Below are positions 1,862 to 63,304 of a stretch of 64,000 nucleotides of DNA, piece after piece. Each line of letters opens with the position of its first letter. Position 1 is the first letter of the stretch. Position numbers and translations under genes: made by a program. The DNA is from Diadophis punctatus similis. Taxonomy: Eukaryota; Chordata; Lepidosauria; Squamata; Dipsadidae. Under the pieces are notes generated by a model. It was not told the DNA's origin, ran no database searches, and saw nothing but the letters and a program-made list of their open reading frames with translations. The DNA lies in the NCBI GenBank assembly GCA_023053685.1, contig JALIGW010000004.1:81026398-81090397 (forward strand), in the 5' to 3' direction.

Positions 1862-2330
1862 ATATCTGTCATCGGACATTGGCGATTATGTTGGCGATCC
1901 TATTTTTATCAACAGCTGCACGAAAAAGTGCTGTTGAGTTTTGTCCAAACCAGCCCCTTAGATTTTGAAGCCATGAGGTTTTTCTTCTGCTTGGACCTCG
2001 TTTTGTCTTTAATCTTTACTTGGAGGATTAAGTGAAGTATGCCATATTTTTCCGGCTGTCGCATCACATGTCCAAAATATTCTAACTTTGGCTTTTATAT
2101 GGTTTTGATGATTTCCCTTGGCTTTCCCAGGCAGCTAATCACCTCATTTCTGATTTTGTTGACCCAACATATATGTAACAGCTGCCTGTAAATCCACATT
2201 TCAAATGCTTCTGGTCTACTATACTTATGTTACTAAAATTATGGTTGCGTTGCTCTACTAGGAATTCAAGCATATCTTGTTTGTTTTTGAGCATTAATGC
2301 ATTAACAGAGAGAGAGATAATCAAGATCTT
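1862..2330 (-). mobile_element. RTE-like LINE, C-terminal end of the reverse transcriptase ORF
   Basis: The minus strand reads EAFEMWIYRQLLHICW, KPKLEYFGHVMRQPEKYG, then, after one frameshift, WLQNLRGWFGQ and RAAVDKNRIANIIANVR followed by TGA near 1878. The 'EMW...RLLHI.W', 'LEYFGH.MR' and 'I.NVR stop' order is typical of the C-terminus of endonuclease-reverse transcriptases of the RTE type. There is a frameshift and at least one stop, so this is a dead 5'-truncated copy. The stop is followed by the (GGA)n array. Confidence 0.6.
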
Positions 2331-2760
2331 GTAAAGTGATCTTTATACCAATTTATAATGCCTTGGTAAGGCCACACTTGGAATATTGCATTCAGTTTTG
2401 GTCACCACGATGCAAAAAGGACGTTGAGACTCTAGAAAGAGTGCAGAGAAGAGCAACAAAGGTGATTAGGGGACTGGAGGCTGAAACATATGAAGAACGG
2501 TTGCAGGAATTGGGCATGTCTAGTTTAATGAAAAGAAGGACCAGGGGAGACATGATAGCAGTCTTCCAATATCTCAGAGATTGCCACAAAGAAGAGGGAG
2601 TCAAACTATTCTCCAAAGCACCAGAAGGAAAGAGAAGAAGCAATGGATGGAAACTAATCAAGGAGAGAAGCAACCCAAAATTAAGGAGAAATTTCCTGAC
2701 AGTGAGAACAATTAATCAGTGGTCAACTTGCCTCCAGAAGTCGAATAGAAAGATATAATA
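2331..2760 (+). mobile_element. CR1 LINE, C-terminal RT fragment, sense
   Basis: The frame from 2336 reads VRPHLEYCIQFWSP, LERVQRRATKVIRGLE, KRRTRGDMIAVFQYL, LFSKAPEGKRRSNGWK and RRNFLTVRTINQWS, the standard end of the CR1 reverse transcriptase ORF. The element then degrades. It is the longest sense CR1 piece in the window. Confidence 0.85.
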
Positions 2761-8375: not shown

Positions 8376-8677
8376 TCTCTCTCCCTCCCTCCCTCTCTCC
8401 CTCCCTTCCCTTCCCTCCCTCTATCTCTTCCCCTCTCTCTTTCTCTCTCCCTCCTCCCTCTCCCTTCTCTCTCCCTCTCTCCCTCCCTCTTCATCTCCCT
8501 CCCTCCCTCTCCCCCTCTTTCCCCCTGTCCCTCCCCTCTCTCCCTCCCCCTCTCTCCCTCTTTCCCCCTCTCTCTCCCTCCCCCTCCCTTCCCTCTCTCT
8601 CCCCCTCTCTCTCCCTTTCCCTCTCTCCCTCTCTCTCCCTTTCCCTTCCCCTCCCTCCGTCCTTCCCTCTCCCTCCC
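8376..8677. repeat. Polypyrimidine (CT-rich) tract, left part
   Basis: About 300 bases almost purely C and T on the + strand. It continues at 9007 after an inserted LTR, so the two parts were once one tract. The long serine/proline/leucine and arginine/glutamate/glycine frames over it are compositional artefacts. Confidence 0.95.
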
Positions 8678-9006
8678 TGTTGAAATGAGAATGATATCTC
8701 ATAGAGGCGATGTAGGATCTTTTCTTGGAATTCAGACAGTTAGAAATAAAACCGAGATTAAAAGTCTAATAGAAAATGTTTATTTCAGTACAAAAACAAT
8801 AAATCCTGAATAGTTATATCTTTGCTAAGAAACATGACCGTTCAGGTCAACAGCTAAGGCAGAAGAGAATTAATGGTGGATTAGGAATGCACACATGCGC
8901 ACTCATCATATCACGTGTTCTGCTTATATTGGAATGTACCATAATATTAGGATAGGGGTGTATCACCCTGCATAGACATACAACTGACAATATTCACTAC
9001 GTAACA
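8678..9006 (-). mobile_element. Solo LTR inserted in the polypyrimidine tract
   Basis: It runs TGTTG...TAACA and is flanked by CTCCC on both sides (8673-8677 and 9007-9011), though the flank is low complexity. On the minus strand it shows ACTGAAATAAACATTTT, a polyadenylation-signal region. The minus strand aligns by eye along most of its length with 56510-56853 on the plus strand (shared AAGCAGA, CATGTG, GTACTGAAATAAA, ATCTCGGTTTTATTT blocks), so the two are copies of one LTR family. Terminal bases and 5-bp duplication resemble the local copia element, but the family is not identified. Confidence 0.7.
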
Positions 9007-9612
9007 CTCCCCCTCTCTTTCCCTCTCTCCTTCTCTCTCTCCCTTCCTTCCCCTCCCTCCCCCTCTCCCCCTCCCCCTTCCTTCCTTCCCTCTCTCTCTC
9101 CCTCTTTCTCCCTTTCCCTTTCCTTCCCCCTCCCTCCTTCCCTCCCCCTCTCTTTCCCTCTCTCCTTCTCTCCCTTCCTCTCCTTCCTCTCTCTCTCTCC
9201 TCCTCCCCCTCTCTCCCTCCCCCTTCCTTCCTTCCCTCTCTCTCTCCCTCTTTCTCCCTTTCCCTTTCCTTCCCCCTCCCTCCTTCCCTCTCCCTCCCCC
9301 TCTCTTTCCGTCTCTCCTTCTCTCCCTTCCTCTCCTTCCTCTCTCTCTCTCCTCCTCCCCCTCTCTCCCTCCCCCTTCCTTCCTTCCTTCCCTCTCTCTC
9401 TCCCTCTCTCTCCCTCCCTTTCCTTCCCCCCTCCCTCCTTCCCTCTCCCTCCCCCTCTCTTTCCCTCTCTCCTTCTCCCCCTTCCTCTCCTTCCTCTCTC
9501 TCTCCTCCTCCCCCTCTCTCCCTCCCCCTCTCCCCCTCTCTCCCCCTCCCTCTTCCTCCTCTCTCCACCCCTCCCTCGCTCTCCTTCTCCCTCTCTCTTC
9601 CCCCCCCCTCTC
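9007..9612. repeat. Polypyrimidine (CT-rich) tract, right part
   Basis: About 600 bases of nearly pure pyrimidine, with internal higher-order repeats of a unit of roughly 130 bases (CTTCCTTCCCTCTCTCTCTC ... CCCCCTCCCTCCTTCCCT recurs near 9087, 9230 and 9385). Confidence 0.9.
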
Positions 9613-10214: not shown

Positions 10215-10980
<766 letters not shown>

Positions 10981-11579
10981 AGAGACAGAGAGAGATAGTG
11001 ATAATAGACCAACAGACAGGTAGATTCAGCCACTGAACATAGGAAGGGAAGGGTATTTCTGGATATGCAGAATGGATAAATTTAGTAGATTGAAACTCCT
11101 GTTTCAGATAATGGGGCTCAACATTCCAGTTATTAACCTTAAGGAGAATTGTTACCCAGGATACCTTGTAGTTAAAGAACTATGATTTTGTTGGTGCTAG
11201 AGTGTTGCTGTCGGTAGAATTCAGGATGTTCTCCGATACATGCATGAATGCCAAGCCAAGTCAGATGTCAAAGTTAGTCTTCTAAGGCTACTGCTATTAA
11301 GTTTGACATCTGGAATGTGTGCAGAATCCCCTTTGTCTTCCAATTATTTTCAAATTATTTCCTTTATTTATTTCAATCAATCCTGCATATCCTTTTCCCC
11401 CCCCATTTCAGGATACTCATCAAACACATTATAAATGCAAAAGCTAAGCAAGCTTTCCTTTGCAGGAAAGCAAAACAAACGTCAGCAGGCAATATTATAT
11501 TAGTTGTAACTTAAAAACCAAAAAGATGAAAATAAATTAGCATTTATGAATAAACTTGCATTTTTATTTTCATTTTTAG
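10981..11579. other. PRKAR2B intron before exon 3
   Basis: No repeat or additional exon recognised. The last 60 bases supply the acceptor tract of the next exon. Confidence 0.5.
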
Positions 11580-24275
<12,696 letters not shown>

Positions 24276-35928: not shown

Positions 35929-36135
35929 GATCTAGGATTAATTAAACAAGATTTTTTTTTTAAAAAAACTCATTACCGGCTTTCTGCGAGACAAACTAAT
36001 GAAAATCAAATAACAAAATACACAAAACGAGCCTCTAAATTACAAAATGCTGTAAGAACAAACTCTATAAAAAATCCATGCGCTCATCAAACCAGGTGGT
36101 CAGCTACCCAGAATCACAAGTGCTTTGGTGGTTCT

Positions 36136-36611
36136 TGTTAATGTATTAGCAGAGTATTCCTTGTGTTACCAAGGTTGTGCATACAGAAACGTTTAGATTG
36201 AGATCAGTTGTGAATAAGTATTCAGCCACACACAGATACACTAACTTGAATTAAAGTTTACTTTTGAGAAATAGCATGTTCCTATAAACAGTCCAAAGTC
36301 ATACACTTAATAGTCATAATGACAATCCAAGTATTATCCAGTACAAATACATTTTAGCTATAATACATAACTACAACACAGAGAGAAATGCAGAGCATAC
36401 ATACTCTAGGCCTTGCTCTAATGAGAAGCAGAGACTACACTAAGTAGTAGAGACCAAAGACAAACAGAGAGGGACTCCCATAGAAATAAGCTGTGAACTC
36501 TAACTCCCTCTTGTGGCAGTCTGCAACACCTCAGCTAAACAGACACACTTCTGTTAAAAGCTAAAACATATATTGTCCTACCCAATATTAGTTATGGTCA
36601 GGGACCTAACA
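36136..36611 (-). repeat. Copia 3' LTR (element orientation)
   Basis: 476 bp, TGTTA...TAACA, same sequence as 40596-41071. Immediately preceded, in element orientation, by the polypurine tract. Confidence 0.96.
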
Positions 36612-36622
36612 TTCTCCCCTTT
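36612..36622 (-). promoter_or_regulatory. Copia polypurine tract
   Basis: Minus strand AAAGGGGAGAA directly abutting the LTR: the expected plus-strand priming site. Confidence 0.85.
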
Positions 36623-36644
36623 GGGTAGATCAATATATAATACC

Positions 36645-39600
36645 TTACATCTTTAAACCATAGTTTTCACAACACTCTTTGTGTTTAATTGCACCTTGCG
36701 CTTTAGTGAAATGATCTGCAATATTCTGTTCAGTCATGCAGTATTCCAACTTAACCATTTTATTTTGAACACATTGTCTAACATTCAGATATCTCAAATC
36801 AGTATGTTTCGACCTTGTTTTCACAGCTAAACTATTAGCCATACTAATGGCAGATTGATTGTCTTCATACACAATAAATGGCTCCTGTACAGTAATTCCT
36901 ATATCCTTTAACAATTGTTTATAATACACCAATTCTGTACACATTAATGATAAACTCGAGAATTCTGCTTCCATAGTGGATAAACTAATATGTTGTTGCC
37001 TAATAGATTTCCACCCTATTAAAGCATTACCCAACATTACCACTATACCTGATGTTGATTTGCGAGTCATTGCATCAGTAGCAAAACTTGCATCAGCATA
37101 TGCAGTTAACACTAATTCATTTCTCGGTTCTAAATATAAAGAATAATGTATTGTGTGCTTTAGGTATCTAAGTATTCGTTTAGCTGCTTGCCAATGCCTT
37201 TCATTTGGTTCAGCATTATATCTAGCCAGTTGATTTACGCTATAAGATATATCTGGTCTAGACCAATTACTCAAATATGAGAGACTACCAATTAGAGACT
37301 GATATATCTCCTTATCAAACACAGGACATTTAGTATCGCTATTTGTAAATCCCTGATCCATTGGTGTCTTAGCAGTTTTACAATTCTCCAGATTATATCT
37401 TTTTAACAATTGGCTAATCTTCTTAGCTTGCGAAATTTTGAATCCTCTATTTGTCTTCATTATATCAAGACCCAAATAATGTTTAATCTCTCCTAAATTT
37501 CTAATCTTGAACTTTCTTTGTAATTCAGAAACAATATCATTTGCTTCTTGTTCAGTCTTTGTTATAATCGCTATATCATCTGTAAATAATAGCAGCAGAG
37601 AAATCAAACCATCTTTCTCTCTCCTAAATAAACAAGGATCAGCTATACCAGCTTTAAAATCCATGGAAACTAATTCTTTTACAATGCATTTATTCCATTC
37701 ATAACCTGATTGCTTTAAACCATAAAGACTTTTCTTTAATTTCCAATAATCATTTTTTCCATCATCTTTTAAACCTAATGGCTTTCTCATATAAATGGTA
37801 TGTTGTAAAGGTGCATGTAGATATGCAGTTTCGACATCTACATGATTAATTATGCATTTATTTTTAGCTGCCCAAACTAATGCTCCTCTCAATGTATTTG
37901 CTCTCAGACTAGGTGCAAATACCTCATCATAATCCTTATCTGATTGAGCAAATCCCTGAGCAACTAATCTTGCTTTATGGGTAACAGTGCCATCCACACC
38001 AGTCTTTAATTTATACACCCATCTGCAACCTATTGCACGCTCACCTAGTGGTAACCTTACATCTTCATATACCTCAAGATCCTTTAAAGATTTTAATTCC
38101 TTATTCATAGCTTCCTGCCAAGCTACCTGTTCCTTTGTTGGATACAGCTTAAGTTCATTATAATTAGACGGTTCCACATTAATCTGGCATACAATACTTG
38201 CCTGATATCTATCAGGTGGACGTCTCTCCCTAGTTGACCTCCTAGGCAATTTAGTACAAGTTGTTGGAATTTCCTCTTCCTTTTCCTCCCCTAACGAAGT
38301 ATCTTCTACATCATCCATAGATGGTTCCTCTATTGAGGATTCTTTCACTATCCTATCATCAGTACTATTCTTATCAGAATCATCAGGAAACAATGGATCC
38401 TCAACAACAATACTATCTTGTTCCTTGTATTCCTGTTCCAGTTTACTCCATCCAACATGCTCAAGGAATTTAGCACTTGCACTACAATATACTCTAGTAG
38501 TACCTGGCTCCCAGAATCTAAATGATCTATGATTAGATTCATATCCTACAAAACATAATTTCCGTGCTCTATGTTGTCCCTTTCGCCTTACTTGTGTGGG
38601 AATATGCACCCATGCTGGTGCACCAAATGTATGCAAATAACTAAGATTTGGTTTCCTACCATACCAACGGGTAAATGGCAATTCACCAGTTGTTACATTC
38701 ACTACATTGTTCAAAACATGGTTAGCACACATTATAGCTTCACCCCAGAGTCTTTCTGGTAAACCAGAATCTGAAATCATGGTTCTAGACATAGCCTGTA
38801 ATGTCTGACCTCTACGTTCAATATGCGCATTATGTTGTGGCCGAAAAGGAGCAGAACGCTTATGTTCAATACCAGCTCTCTTTAGCATATCTTCAAATCT
38901 CTTATTGGTAAACTCAGTACCATTATCTGTTACTAAACTAACCAGTTTCTTATTCATTTTTCGTTCAACAAACCTTAACCAGTTTACAAAATGCTGATAT
39001 GTTTCTGTTTTTGTTTTCATCAGATAACAGAAACCATATCTAGAAAAATGATCAACTATGCTCAATATATAACAGGCTCCACCTAAACTGGGTTTCTTAG
39101 GGCCAATGAGATCAGCAAATACAACCTCTAATGGTTCCTTGGTTTTAAATCCATTTAACCTGTTTGCAGGAATTACCTTGCTCTTTTCCTGATTGCAAGC
39201 ATTACAATTTAAATATCTTGTACAAGGTTTTAATTTTATACCATTAGATAACTCAACAGTTTTCTTTAAAATTTTGAAATTTAAATGTCCCATACGTCTA
39301 TGGAGCAAATGAATACATTCGTCATGAGGCTTTCTATTTTCATAAACTGAATTGGCCTTATTTAATGGACTATCATGGATAATGTATAAGCCATCATGCA
39401 ACCTTGCAGTAACTCTTTTACCTTGTTTTTCAATTAAACATTTATCTCCCTGAAAAATTACCACAAACCCTGCTTTTACCAATTCTCTCACAGATAGTAA
39501 GTTATATATAAGGTTAGGTACATATAACATTGGTAAATTTTCATTAATACATGAACAATATGCATTACCTTCTCCAGATACTTTCAATTTCCAGCCATTT

Positions 39601-40061
39601 GCTAATGATACATGCTGGTTACTTTTAGTCATATTAACAAATCTCTCTTTACTTTTAGTTATACACTGAGATGCTCCACTGTCTATTATCCAGATATCAT
39701 GGCTTACATTTTTATTTGTACTTGATATAGCTACACTAACATCATTATAAGCTCTCTGCATATTACTAGCATTCTGCCTTTTACCCATTTTACAGAATCT
39801 GGCTATATGACCCTTAGCCCCACAAGAATAACATTTCCTAACAATATAGGCAGTTGAAGACCGTTTTTCTTCCTGTGGTGGTTTCTCTCTCAGCTGTTTT
39901 CTATCTTGCCTTCTTCTAGACTCTTCTAACAGTCTTCCTATTATGCCAGTCAATGTCAGTTCATCTCTGGTCAAAACTTCCAGTGAAGACACATAATCAT
40001 CATAAGAGTCATCCAAAGAAGAAAGAATAATATAAACTTGATGCAACTCTGAAAAAAATCA
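36645..40061 (-). CDS. Copia Pol polyprotein (gag C-terminus, protease, integrase, RT, RNase H)
   Basis: One frame open for about 1,133 codons from 40046 (no ATG; it continues gag after a one-base offset). Counting from 40046: zinc knuckle C72-C75-H80-C85; protease DSGA at 122-125; integrase zinc finger H249/H254/C281/C284; integrase catalytic D312, D374 and E410, with 35 residues between the last two (DD35E); RT with VDVETAYLHA at 736-745 (D737) and FTDD at 821-824 in place of the usual YVDD; RNase H with D985, E1026 and D1062; KHTD and ADHFTK near the end. No internal stop. All catalytic acids are present, so the enzymes look functional apart from how this frame is entered. Confidence 0.95.
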
Positions 40062-40503
40062 GTTCTTTTTCATGTAGCTCTTGTAATGTTCTCTTCATAA
40101 ACTCCAAATGAGCTAACATGTCACCGCCTTTTAACAAACGTGCTCTGAACAGTTTACGTGTAAGATGTATGTGCGCACCAACACTATCTCGAACATAAAG
40201 TCTCTTTAAGGTACTCCAACACTTGGCAGCAGAATCTTCACCATGAATATGGACCAGTTGCTGATCACTCAGTGTCAGTCCAATAATACTAAGAGCCTTT
40301 TCATTATCCCGGTTAAAGTCAGCTATTTTCTTCTTATCTTCATCATTTGTTGGATCCCAAGCTGTTATATCAGGTGGATTATTAACCACAGTCCATAATC
40401 CTTCTTTACGCAAAAGTAAGCTGCACTTCATAGACCAGGAAACATAGTTAGTTCCATCTAACCTGGTTATCAGGGATAAGCTAGTTGACTGTTCTTGTGC
40501 CAT
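40009..40503 (-). CDS. Copia Gag, N-terminal part
   Basis: ATG at 40503 starts MAQEQSTSLSLITRLDGTNY, then SWSMKCSLLLRKEGLW, the Gag signature of copia elements (L.G.NY..W...M...L...LW). The coding sense runs to the T7 run at about 40052-40058, where pol sense continues in the +1 frame; the gag frame itself stops at 40009 after about 14 unrelated residues. The open frame also extends upstream of the ATG to 40572, but that part covers the leader after the primer-binding site. Confidence 0.85.
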   Translation of the reverse strand: MAQEQSTSLSLITRLDGTNYVSWSMKCSLLLRKEGLWTVVNNPPDITAWDPTNDEDKKKIADFNRDNEKALSIIGLTLSDQQLVHIHGEDSAAKCWSTLKRLYVRDSVGAHIHLTRKLFRARLLKGGDMLAHLEFMKRTLQELHEKELIFFRVASSLYYSFFFG

Positions 40504-40579
40504 TGTTAATTTAACAGTAAACCACAAGTTAGCTGTCTGAGTATGAAACTGAATATTCACACTAACTCTCAATATCTCT

Positions 40580-40593
40580 CTGGGCCCATAACC
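40580..40593 (-). promoter_or_regulatory. Copia primer-binding site for half tRNA-iMet
   Basis: Minus strand GGTTATGGGCCCAG starts two bases after the 5' LTR. It is complementary to CUGGGCCCAUAACC, the anticodon-loop part of vertebrate initiator tRNA-Met, not to a tRNA 3' end. Drosophila copia is primed by the cleaved 5' half of tRNA-iMet at this same segment. Confidence 0.88.
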
Positions 40594-40595
40594 AG

Positions 40596-41071
40596 TGTTA
40601 ATGTATTAGCAGAGTATTCCTTGTGTTACCAAGGTTGTGCATACAGAAACGTTTAGATTGAGATCAGTTGTGAATAAGTATTCAGCCACACACAGATACA
40701 CTAACTTGAATTAAAGTTTACTTTTGAGAAATAGCATGTTCCTATAAACAGTCCAAAGTCATACACTTAATAGTCATAATGACAATCCAAGTATTATCCA
40801 GTACAAATACATTTTAGCTATAATACATAACTACAACACAGAGAGAAATGCAGAGCATACATACTCTAGGCCTTGCTCTAATGAGAAGCAGAGACTACAC
40901 TAAGTAGTAGAGACCAAAGACAAACAGAGAGGGACTCCCATAGAAATAAGCTGTGAACTCTAACTCCCTCTTGTGGCAGTCTGCAACACCTCAGCTAAAC
41001 AGACACACTTCTGTTAAAAGCTAAAACATATATTGTCCTACCCAATATTAGTTATGGTCAGGGACCTAACA
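40596..41071 (-). repeat. Copia 5' LTR (element orientation)
   Basis: 476 bp, same as the other LTR. It should carry the element promoter; CAATATATG lies near its start on the minus strand but no TATA box is certain. Confidence 0.96.
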
Positions 41072-41192
41072 GTTCTGCTTCACCATTAAACCATCTTTCC
41101 AACCAGCCACCATGTTTCCAGTGTTTTTCTCCCCACTTGGAACTGAAACAGATGGCTATTTTCTTCCAACAGGGGCAATATATAAATGTATA

Positions 41193-41667: not shown

Positions 41668-41874
41668 CTGTGGCCTAGAGGTGGAGCTCTTGCCTCACAA
41701 TCAGGAGGTTGTGAGTTCGATCCTAGGTAGAGGCAGATGTAAGGGTCTCCTGCTTGGGCAGGGGGTTGGACTAGATGACCTGCAAGGTCCCTTCCAACTC
41801 TGTTAATCTGATCCTGCTTGGGCAGGGGGTTGGACTAGATGACCTGCAAGGTCCCTTCCAACTCTGTTAATCTG
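41668..41874 (+). repeat. CR1-tailed tRNA SINE with duplicated tail
   Basis: Head GTGGCCTAGAGGTGGAGCTC and B box as in 35138, then the CR1 tail CTTGGGCAGGGGGTTGGACT ... CTCTGTTAATCTGATC, which is present twice in tandem (41753-41813 and 41815-41875). Confidence 0.8.
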
Positions 41875-42364
41875 ATCTGATGTTACTTCCTCGGTTTGCA
41901 TTCCCCACTTTTCCTAGCGGGCCACAACCAGCTGGGGGGGTGACAGAAATACACGTGTCCCTAAGTTTCTTGTTTACTAATGACCGAGAGCTTTCTGGGA
42001 ATTGTTGTTCCTCAACTCGGTATCGGGCGTTCCTAGAAGAAAAGAGAAAACAACAACGCCCATAACCCTCTTCGGCTCGGGGAGGCGGGCCAAGGTCCAT
42101 TTATTAACGCCTCGTTCAACTTGACTGGCTTCCCCGCAGGCCAATCGAGCGCGCGGAAGACATCAAAACAAGTCTTGTTTTTCTTCAGCTGGACCCCGAC
42201 AAGGCAACGCCGTTGTCCAATGAGCGGAAAGAACCTCCGCGATGGGCGTTCCCGCCAGCCATTCAGAGGCCGAGCCCGATGGAAAAGGGGCGGCGATTTC
42301 GAGCGAGAACGAACGGGGAGAGAGGAGGGAAGGGAAAAAAAAAAAAGCTGTAGGGAGTCCTGTA

Positions 42365-63059
<20,695 letters not shown>

Positions 63060-63304
63060 GTAAAGAGCCTCCGAATTCTGATTTATATTCGATGTATGTT
63101 CACCTCTGGCCTGCTGTTGATGAAATAAATATTTATTCTCTTTGGGTTTTCAATAAAAAAAATATACTTTAGGCTGCAAAATACATACTTTCAGTTTGCA
63201 ATGCAGTGAGTAAGGAAAAAAAAACCTAGTGAGTGTAACGAAACCATTTAGGTACTTCCATTTACACAAGCTTACATGCTTAGCTTGGAATTCATCATTT
63301 AATG

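Follow-up and report, generated by a model that had tools for sequence, protein, structure and literature searches.

The insertion and its coding capacity

The 64,000-nucleotide stretch analysed here, referred to as the window, comes from the dipsadid snake Diadophis punctatus similis (assembly GCA_023053685.1, contig JALIGW010000004.1, positions 81,026,398 to 81,090,397 of the forward strand) and carries a Ty1/copia retrotransposon flanked by long terminal repeats (LTRs). The family of this element is present at hundreds of other places in the assembly, which excludes a chance resemblance. The features of the insertion, including its putative primer binding site (PBS), open reading frames (ORFs) and reverse transcriptase (RT), are listed below in window coordinates.

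36136–41071, minus strand: whole insertion, a 4,936-bp Ty1/copia LTR retrotransposon with identical LTRs, 5-bp duplication and pol domains
41072–41076, no strand: target site duplication GTTCT (plus-strand letters), matching flank 5-mer
40596–41071, minus strand: 5′ LTR, 476 bp, TG...CA, equal to the 3′ LTR at 476/476 positions
40580–40593, minus strand: putative PBS, two bases inside the 5′ LTR
40012–40503, minus strand: gag ORF, ATG at 40503; Retrotran_gag_2 (E=2.7e-17, profile 2–115 of 172); stops inside the capsid-type domain
40052–40058, minus strand: homopolymer T run, where the open frame passes from the gag to the pol frame
36645–40046, minus strand: pol frame, 1,133 codons, the first ~90 being the remainder of gag including the CCHC knuckle
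39465–39692, minus strand: protease region (Pol_BBD, DSGA), by Pfam and motif
38838–39137, minus strand: integrase core (rve), by Pfam; D374 and E410 with 35 residues between
37359–38075, minus strand: RT (RVT_2, Pfam E=2.2e-60) with FTDD box
36777–37097, minus strand: RNase H region (ADAS ... EDNQ ... TDLR), by motif only
36612–36622, minus strand: polypurine tract AAAGGGGAGAA, adjoining the 3′ LTR on its 5′ side
36136–36611, minus strand: 3′ LTR, 476 bp, identical to the 5′ LTR
36131–36135, no strand: target site duplication GTTCT (plus-strand letters), matching flank 5-mer

The LTRs, which had shown no difference on line-by-line reading, were equal at all 476 positions in a program comparison, and the identity ends exactly at both LTR boundaries. 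The two flanking 5-mers are also equal, confirming a perfect GTTCT duplication. The TG...CA ends and 5-bp duplication agree with Ty1/copia, and the identification made in the first-pass annotation is borne out by the order of integrase before RT (rve at residues 304–403, RVT_2 at residues 658–896) and by the superfamily markers, an RVT_2-type RT and a copia-type gag. The Pfam domains of pol follow the order Pol_BBD (protease region), gag_pre-integrs, rve, SH3 and RVT_2. ORF, Pfam and motif evidence agree with the earlier description of an open pol of about 1,133 codons (counted from the first start-type codon; 1,137 from stop to stop) encoding protease, DD35E integrase, RT and RNase H, and the catalytic motifs DSGA, D374/E410 of integrase, DD of RT, and ADAS and EDNQ of RNase H are present. 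The bases following the 5′ LTR are CTGGTTATGGGCCCAG; the putative PBS appears to be complementary to the anticodon-side half of initiator tRNA-Met, and priming by this internal half of the tRNA may be used by the element. Neither Rfam at its gathering threshold nor a tRNA scan gave a match in the 64,000-nt window.

The gag and pol of the window copy lie in different frames and the change of frame falls within the gag domain, whose Pfam match is split over the two frames (profile 2–115 and 125–171 of 172, the second part scoring under the family cut-off). The window copy is therefore not an intact (autonomous) copia element, its gag-pol frame being interrupted, and the earlier description of it as complete does not hold. 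We compared 41 copies fetched from the host assembly, which include the window copy and were picked for greatest similarity to it. An open segment of 1,315 codons or more was present in 35 of these; in the other six, the window copy among them, the longest one was shorter. Most copies of the family are thus open, and the window copy is one of the broken ones.

Copies, age and relatives of the family

The host assembly comprises 1.78 Gb in 419 contigs, one of which, C419, contains mitochondrial genes. The mitochondrial ND2 protein is closest to those of Farancia abacura (87%) and Thermophis shangrila (86%), both Dipsadidae, followed by Stichophanes (85%) and Hypsiglena (81–84%). When the assembly was searched at the protein level, 41 of 9,333 first-look candidates were scored, and all 41 were 98–100% identical over 1,132 or 1,133 pol residues, with one TGA in pol of five. 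The junction between LTR end and PBS occurred at 796 places in the genome at no more than one mismatch (reversed control, 0) and the LTR 3′ end at 1,186 places at the same threshold (control, 0); in an LTR search, 40 of 1,356 candidates were scored and proved 96–100% identical. The element is not a single occurrence in the assembly, a possibility raised with the first-pass annotation. Scaffold C1, the largest, has exact LTR ends in 33 close pairs, as 7 junction-bearing singles and as 13 singles without a junction. Since one of these 13 has a junction-bearing LTR 6.4 kb away, solo LTRs with an exact end number at most 13 on C1; solo LTRs with a mutated end escape this count. L018 and L019, two of the fetched copies, share identical flanks at a distance of about 50 kb from each other, a pattern of segmental or assembly duplication.

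The two LTRs of each fetched copy differed by no mismatch in 26 copies (three of these, L013, L031 and L037, with gapped alignments), by one in nine, by two in two and by three in one; in L022 the LTR was matched from position 27. The remaining three pairs, in L010, L011 and L027, were outliers with 9, 12 and 15 mismatches (and gaps) in copies whose pol is ~99% identical to that of the window copy, possibly reflecting template switching (chimeric reverse transcription) or gene conversion. Setting the outliers aside, there were 16 mismatches in ~18,000 LTR sites, or ~0.09%. Neutral rates in snakes are roughly 0.7–2.4e-9 per site per year, and with these rates the fetched copies are about 0.2–0.6 million years old, while the absence of mismatches over 476 sites bounds the age of the window copy at about 1.3–4.5 million years. 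The very recent insertion proposed from the identical LTRs is upheld; the window copy is one of the 26 fetched copies, out of 41, whose LTRs show no mismatch.

Mean pol divergence among the 41 copies was 1.02%. Variable sites at codon positions 1, 2 and 3 numbered 60, 60 and 120, and the pairwise ratio of nonsynonymous to synonymous divergence (dN/dS) was 0.208 over 820 pairs. Together with the LTR pairs, these values show a very recent expansion under coding constraint; the copies would derive from more than one or two source lineages in which the coding capacity was maintained, and the family is probably active at present.

The 120 best full-length database proteins were just 29–37% identical to the element, those with names coming from arthropods, plants and one fungus. 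Only such relatives were listed in this search because its length filter drops short proteins; a search with the RT-RNase H part found a protein of the coral snake Micrurus surinamensis (Elapidae) with 84% identity over 63% of the query, followed by an unnamed ENA protein (54%) and a protein of the lizard Podarcis raffonei (41%). In the RT tree that had been proposed with the first-pass annotation (80 rows of 241 proteins), the window copy clusters with squamate sequences: it groups with the Micrurus protein (100/99), then with the ENA protein (100/99) and then with Podarcis raffonei (99/98).

When the host assembly was searched with the Micrurus protein, 114 of 4,215 candidates were scored; 110 of them, belonging to the young family, were 82–83% identical and four were 86–89% identical. 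The four nearer places have open frames of 472–631, and stops occur in two of them. One of the four (L044), which was fetched, has a 5′ part without match, LTR remnants of 80–82% identity, and a pol 87.2% identical to that of the window copy over 2,199 bases with one stop in the aligned protein. As judged from these alignments, the host also carries a diverged sister subfamily nearer to the coral-snake sequence, and this subfamily is apparently older than the young family. The ratio of observed to expected CpG in the element is 0.236, against 0.532 and 0.434 in its two flanks, the right one of which contains a GC-rich stretch; such depletion would be expected if the lineage had resided for a long time in a methylated genome.

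Two catalytic boxes of the family are unusual. The RT box reads FTDD in 40 of the 41 copies and FSDD in one, both catalytic D residues being retained, while the 120 distant homologues have YVDD (101), HVDD (11), FVDD (4), WVDD (2), CVDD (1) or YVDN (1), with T at the X position in none. The Micrurus protein and L044 also have FTDD, whereas the ENA and Podarcis raffonei relatives have FVDD, and the change to T at X therefore probably dates from the snake branch of the clade. With FTDD, a clearly successful family carries a naturally occurring departure from an RT motif that is almost invariable. The context of the integrase glutamate is NGxxER in all 119 aligned homologues; in this snake family NAHIER takes its place, except in one of the 41 copies, which has NVHIER.

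Origin of the family

Taken together, these observations very probably describe a Ty1/copia element of ordinary mechanism that belongs to a recently expanded snake family, most likely an old resident, and whose window copy is broken in gag. The element would be transcribed from LTR to LTR, the transcript would yield a gag-pol polyprotein, and tRNA-primed reverse transcription inside particles would be followed by integration through a 5-bp staggered cut. Functional sister copies would have made the window copy, whose gag frame is now broken, and the family would have spread very recently to several hundred copies in its dipsadid host and probably be spreading still. Hundreds of places, mostly open copies and a diverged sister subfamily argue for long residence followed by a burst rather than for recent horizontal transfer; the sister subfamily, the squamate relatives and the CpG depletion likewise suggest long residence in snakes with a late burst. 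The lineage is thus most likely an old snake resident rather than a newcomer, by vertical descent as we infer it.

Several points weigh against this interpretation. The 41 copies over-represent young ones because they were chosen as the most window-like; identical LTRs can also come from gene conversion; and L018 and L019 are one insertion duplicated. Short frames are seen in some places of the young family too, so that they are by themselves no proof of age for the sister subfamily. As one close relative outside the host was found, an ancient horizontal transfer between snake lineages is possible, and the frame break of the window copy could be an assembly error in the homopolymer.

Programmed gag/pol frameshifting occurs in yeast Ty1, and the two frames of the window copy overlap at the homopolymer run, as they would if a ribosomal frameshift kept this copy working. 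However, the break lies inside the gag domain and not after it, and the 35 fetched copies with a single open segment have no such change of frame; these findings argue that the family does not normally rely on a frameshift, and we consider it extremely improbable that the window copy works in this way. The near-identity of the copies might similarly owe more to assembly or segmental duplication than to transposition, as the identical flanks of L018 and L019 and tandem arrays on scaffold C2 would suggest. This too has very little to recommend it: of the 41 fetched copies, 32 have equal 5-mers at their two outer ends, nearly all of them differing from copy to copy, which speaks against an assembly artefact, and 41 exact junctions are scattered along C1.

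The first-pass annotation had left the choice between an active lineage and a recent horizontal arrival. The first alternative stands, in that the family is active or was so very recently, and a fresh arrival is disfavoured. An entry into the snake lineage from another animal within the last few million years, followed by a burst, would fit the low divergence of the fetched pol sequences, the patchy distribution of copia in vertebrates and the distant full-length database relatives, and transfer of other transposable elements (TEs) into hydrophiine snakes is described in the accessible text of PMC8872380. Such an entry is nevertheless improbable, since the nearest named relatives are squamate, among them the 84% identical coral-snake RT that appears among shorter proteins, the RT tree places the element with squamates, the host has apparently older sister copies nearer to the coral-snake sequence, and the element is CpG-depleted. 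A recent arrival from a non-squamate in particular is opposed by the squamate relatives, the tree and the sister subfamily.

The old-resident family can be compared with known elements. The Micrurus surinamensis RT protein (UniRef entry, P0122) shares 84% identity and the FTDD box with it, but is a 358-aa fragment and is nearer to the four other host places (86–89%). The uncharacterised Podarcis raffonei LOC128409424 (P0214) falls into the same RT clade (99/98) and has F in its RT box, but is 41% identical and has FVDD instead of FTDD. Copia of hydrophiines, described in the available part of PMC8872380 as expanding and expressed, resembles the present family in its recent expansion in snakes, but belongs to another snake family and is likened here by its description; Table 2 of that source gives copia as 0.47–1.65% of six elapid assemblies. 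The GalEa clade is also animal copia, and one element described in the accessible sections of PMC3587641 has TG...CA ends; the hosts named in the same sections range from crustaceans, molluscs and other invertebrates to fishes and red algae, and the GalEa1-type PBS, TGGTAGCAGAGC, complementary to the 3′ end of tRNA-Met, does not follow the LTR here. No GalEa-named protein was among the matches listed in the full-length and RT-RNase H protein searches.

A table of TE polymorphism in 28 anoles, as available in PMC7561263, contains 1,962 copia insertions. Recently active copia in squamates is therefore already published, and the elapid and anole reports weaken the earlier view, by which the scarcity of copia in vertebrates makes a fresh copy notable. 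The present snake family was not found described in literature searches, which could not be targeted by name and covered few subscription papers. One insertion becomes a measured case, with hundreds of places, mostly open frames in the examined copies and a sister subfamily alongside. Copia is as a rule a minor component of vertebrate genomes, and this family is a natural setting in which its occasional escape from control can be studied.

Distribution among scaffolds and surroundings of the insertion

Exact junctions were listed for the first 100 places, a listing taken as complete for exact matches on C1 and C2. C1 has 41 in 321.2 Mb (0.128/Mb) and C2 has 55 in 25.0 Mb (2.20/Mb), a 17-fold difference in density that becomes 14-fold once three arrays are collapsed. 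C2 is ~5-fold above the genome mean of 0.447/Mb, a mean that counts junctions at no more than one mismatch, whereas the C2 figure is exact. As C1 lies below the genome mean, other scaffolds must be junction-rich too. Tandem arrays of the element occur on C2 at 1.781–1.808 Mb and 9.62 Mb (L042/L043). One C2 array, LTR-internal, has a 4,480-bp period and 7 junctions among those listed, and another, LTR-plus-gag, has a period of 1,354 bp made up of the LTR and 295 bp of gag.

C2 may be a W chromosome, because the rattlesnake W is described as a retroelement refuge in the accessible text of PMC9447483. This reading is weakened by the density of C2, only ~5-fold the genome mean, and by a snake Z/W table in the available part of PMC7692289, where Ty1/Copia is rarer on W than on Z (40 against 688 copies; 0.09 against 0.23%). 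A colubroid-snake FTDD copia lineage in ongoing burst, with C2 as the female-specific W that serves as its reservoir and source, is accordingly a tentative proposal that we think more probably wrong than right by a wide measure. The system also lets one ask whether a non-recombining chromosome feeds copia.

Near the insertion, a perfect 64-bp tandem duplication lies just outside the element (window 41748–41877), and a GC-rich stretch at 42.0–43.5 kb, ~1 kb from the insertion, could be a promoter. An exon with the start of the HBP1 HMG box is found at 62938–63060 (plus strand), ~22 kb from the insertion. CT-rich microsatellite arrays, one of 152-bp period, occupy 8377–9597, and long GATA/CAGA-type microsatellite arrays occupy 10225–10998 and 12146–12674; the latter belong to the type called Bkm repeats in snakes. 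ORFs at 2321–2758 (plus strand), 23597–24211, 50033–51185 and 55186–55698 (all minus strand) were taken by eye to resemble fragments of CR1- and L1-type long interspersed nuclear elements.

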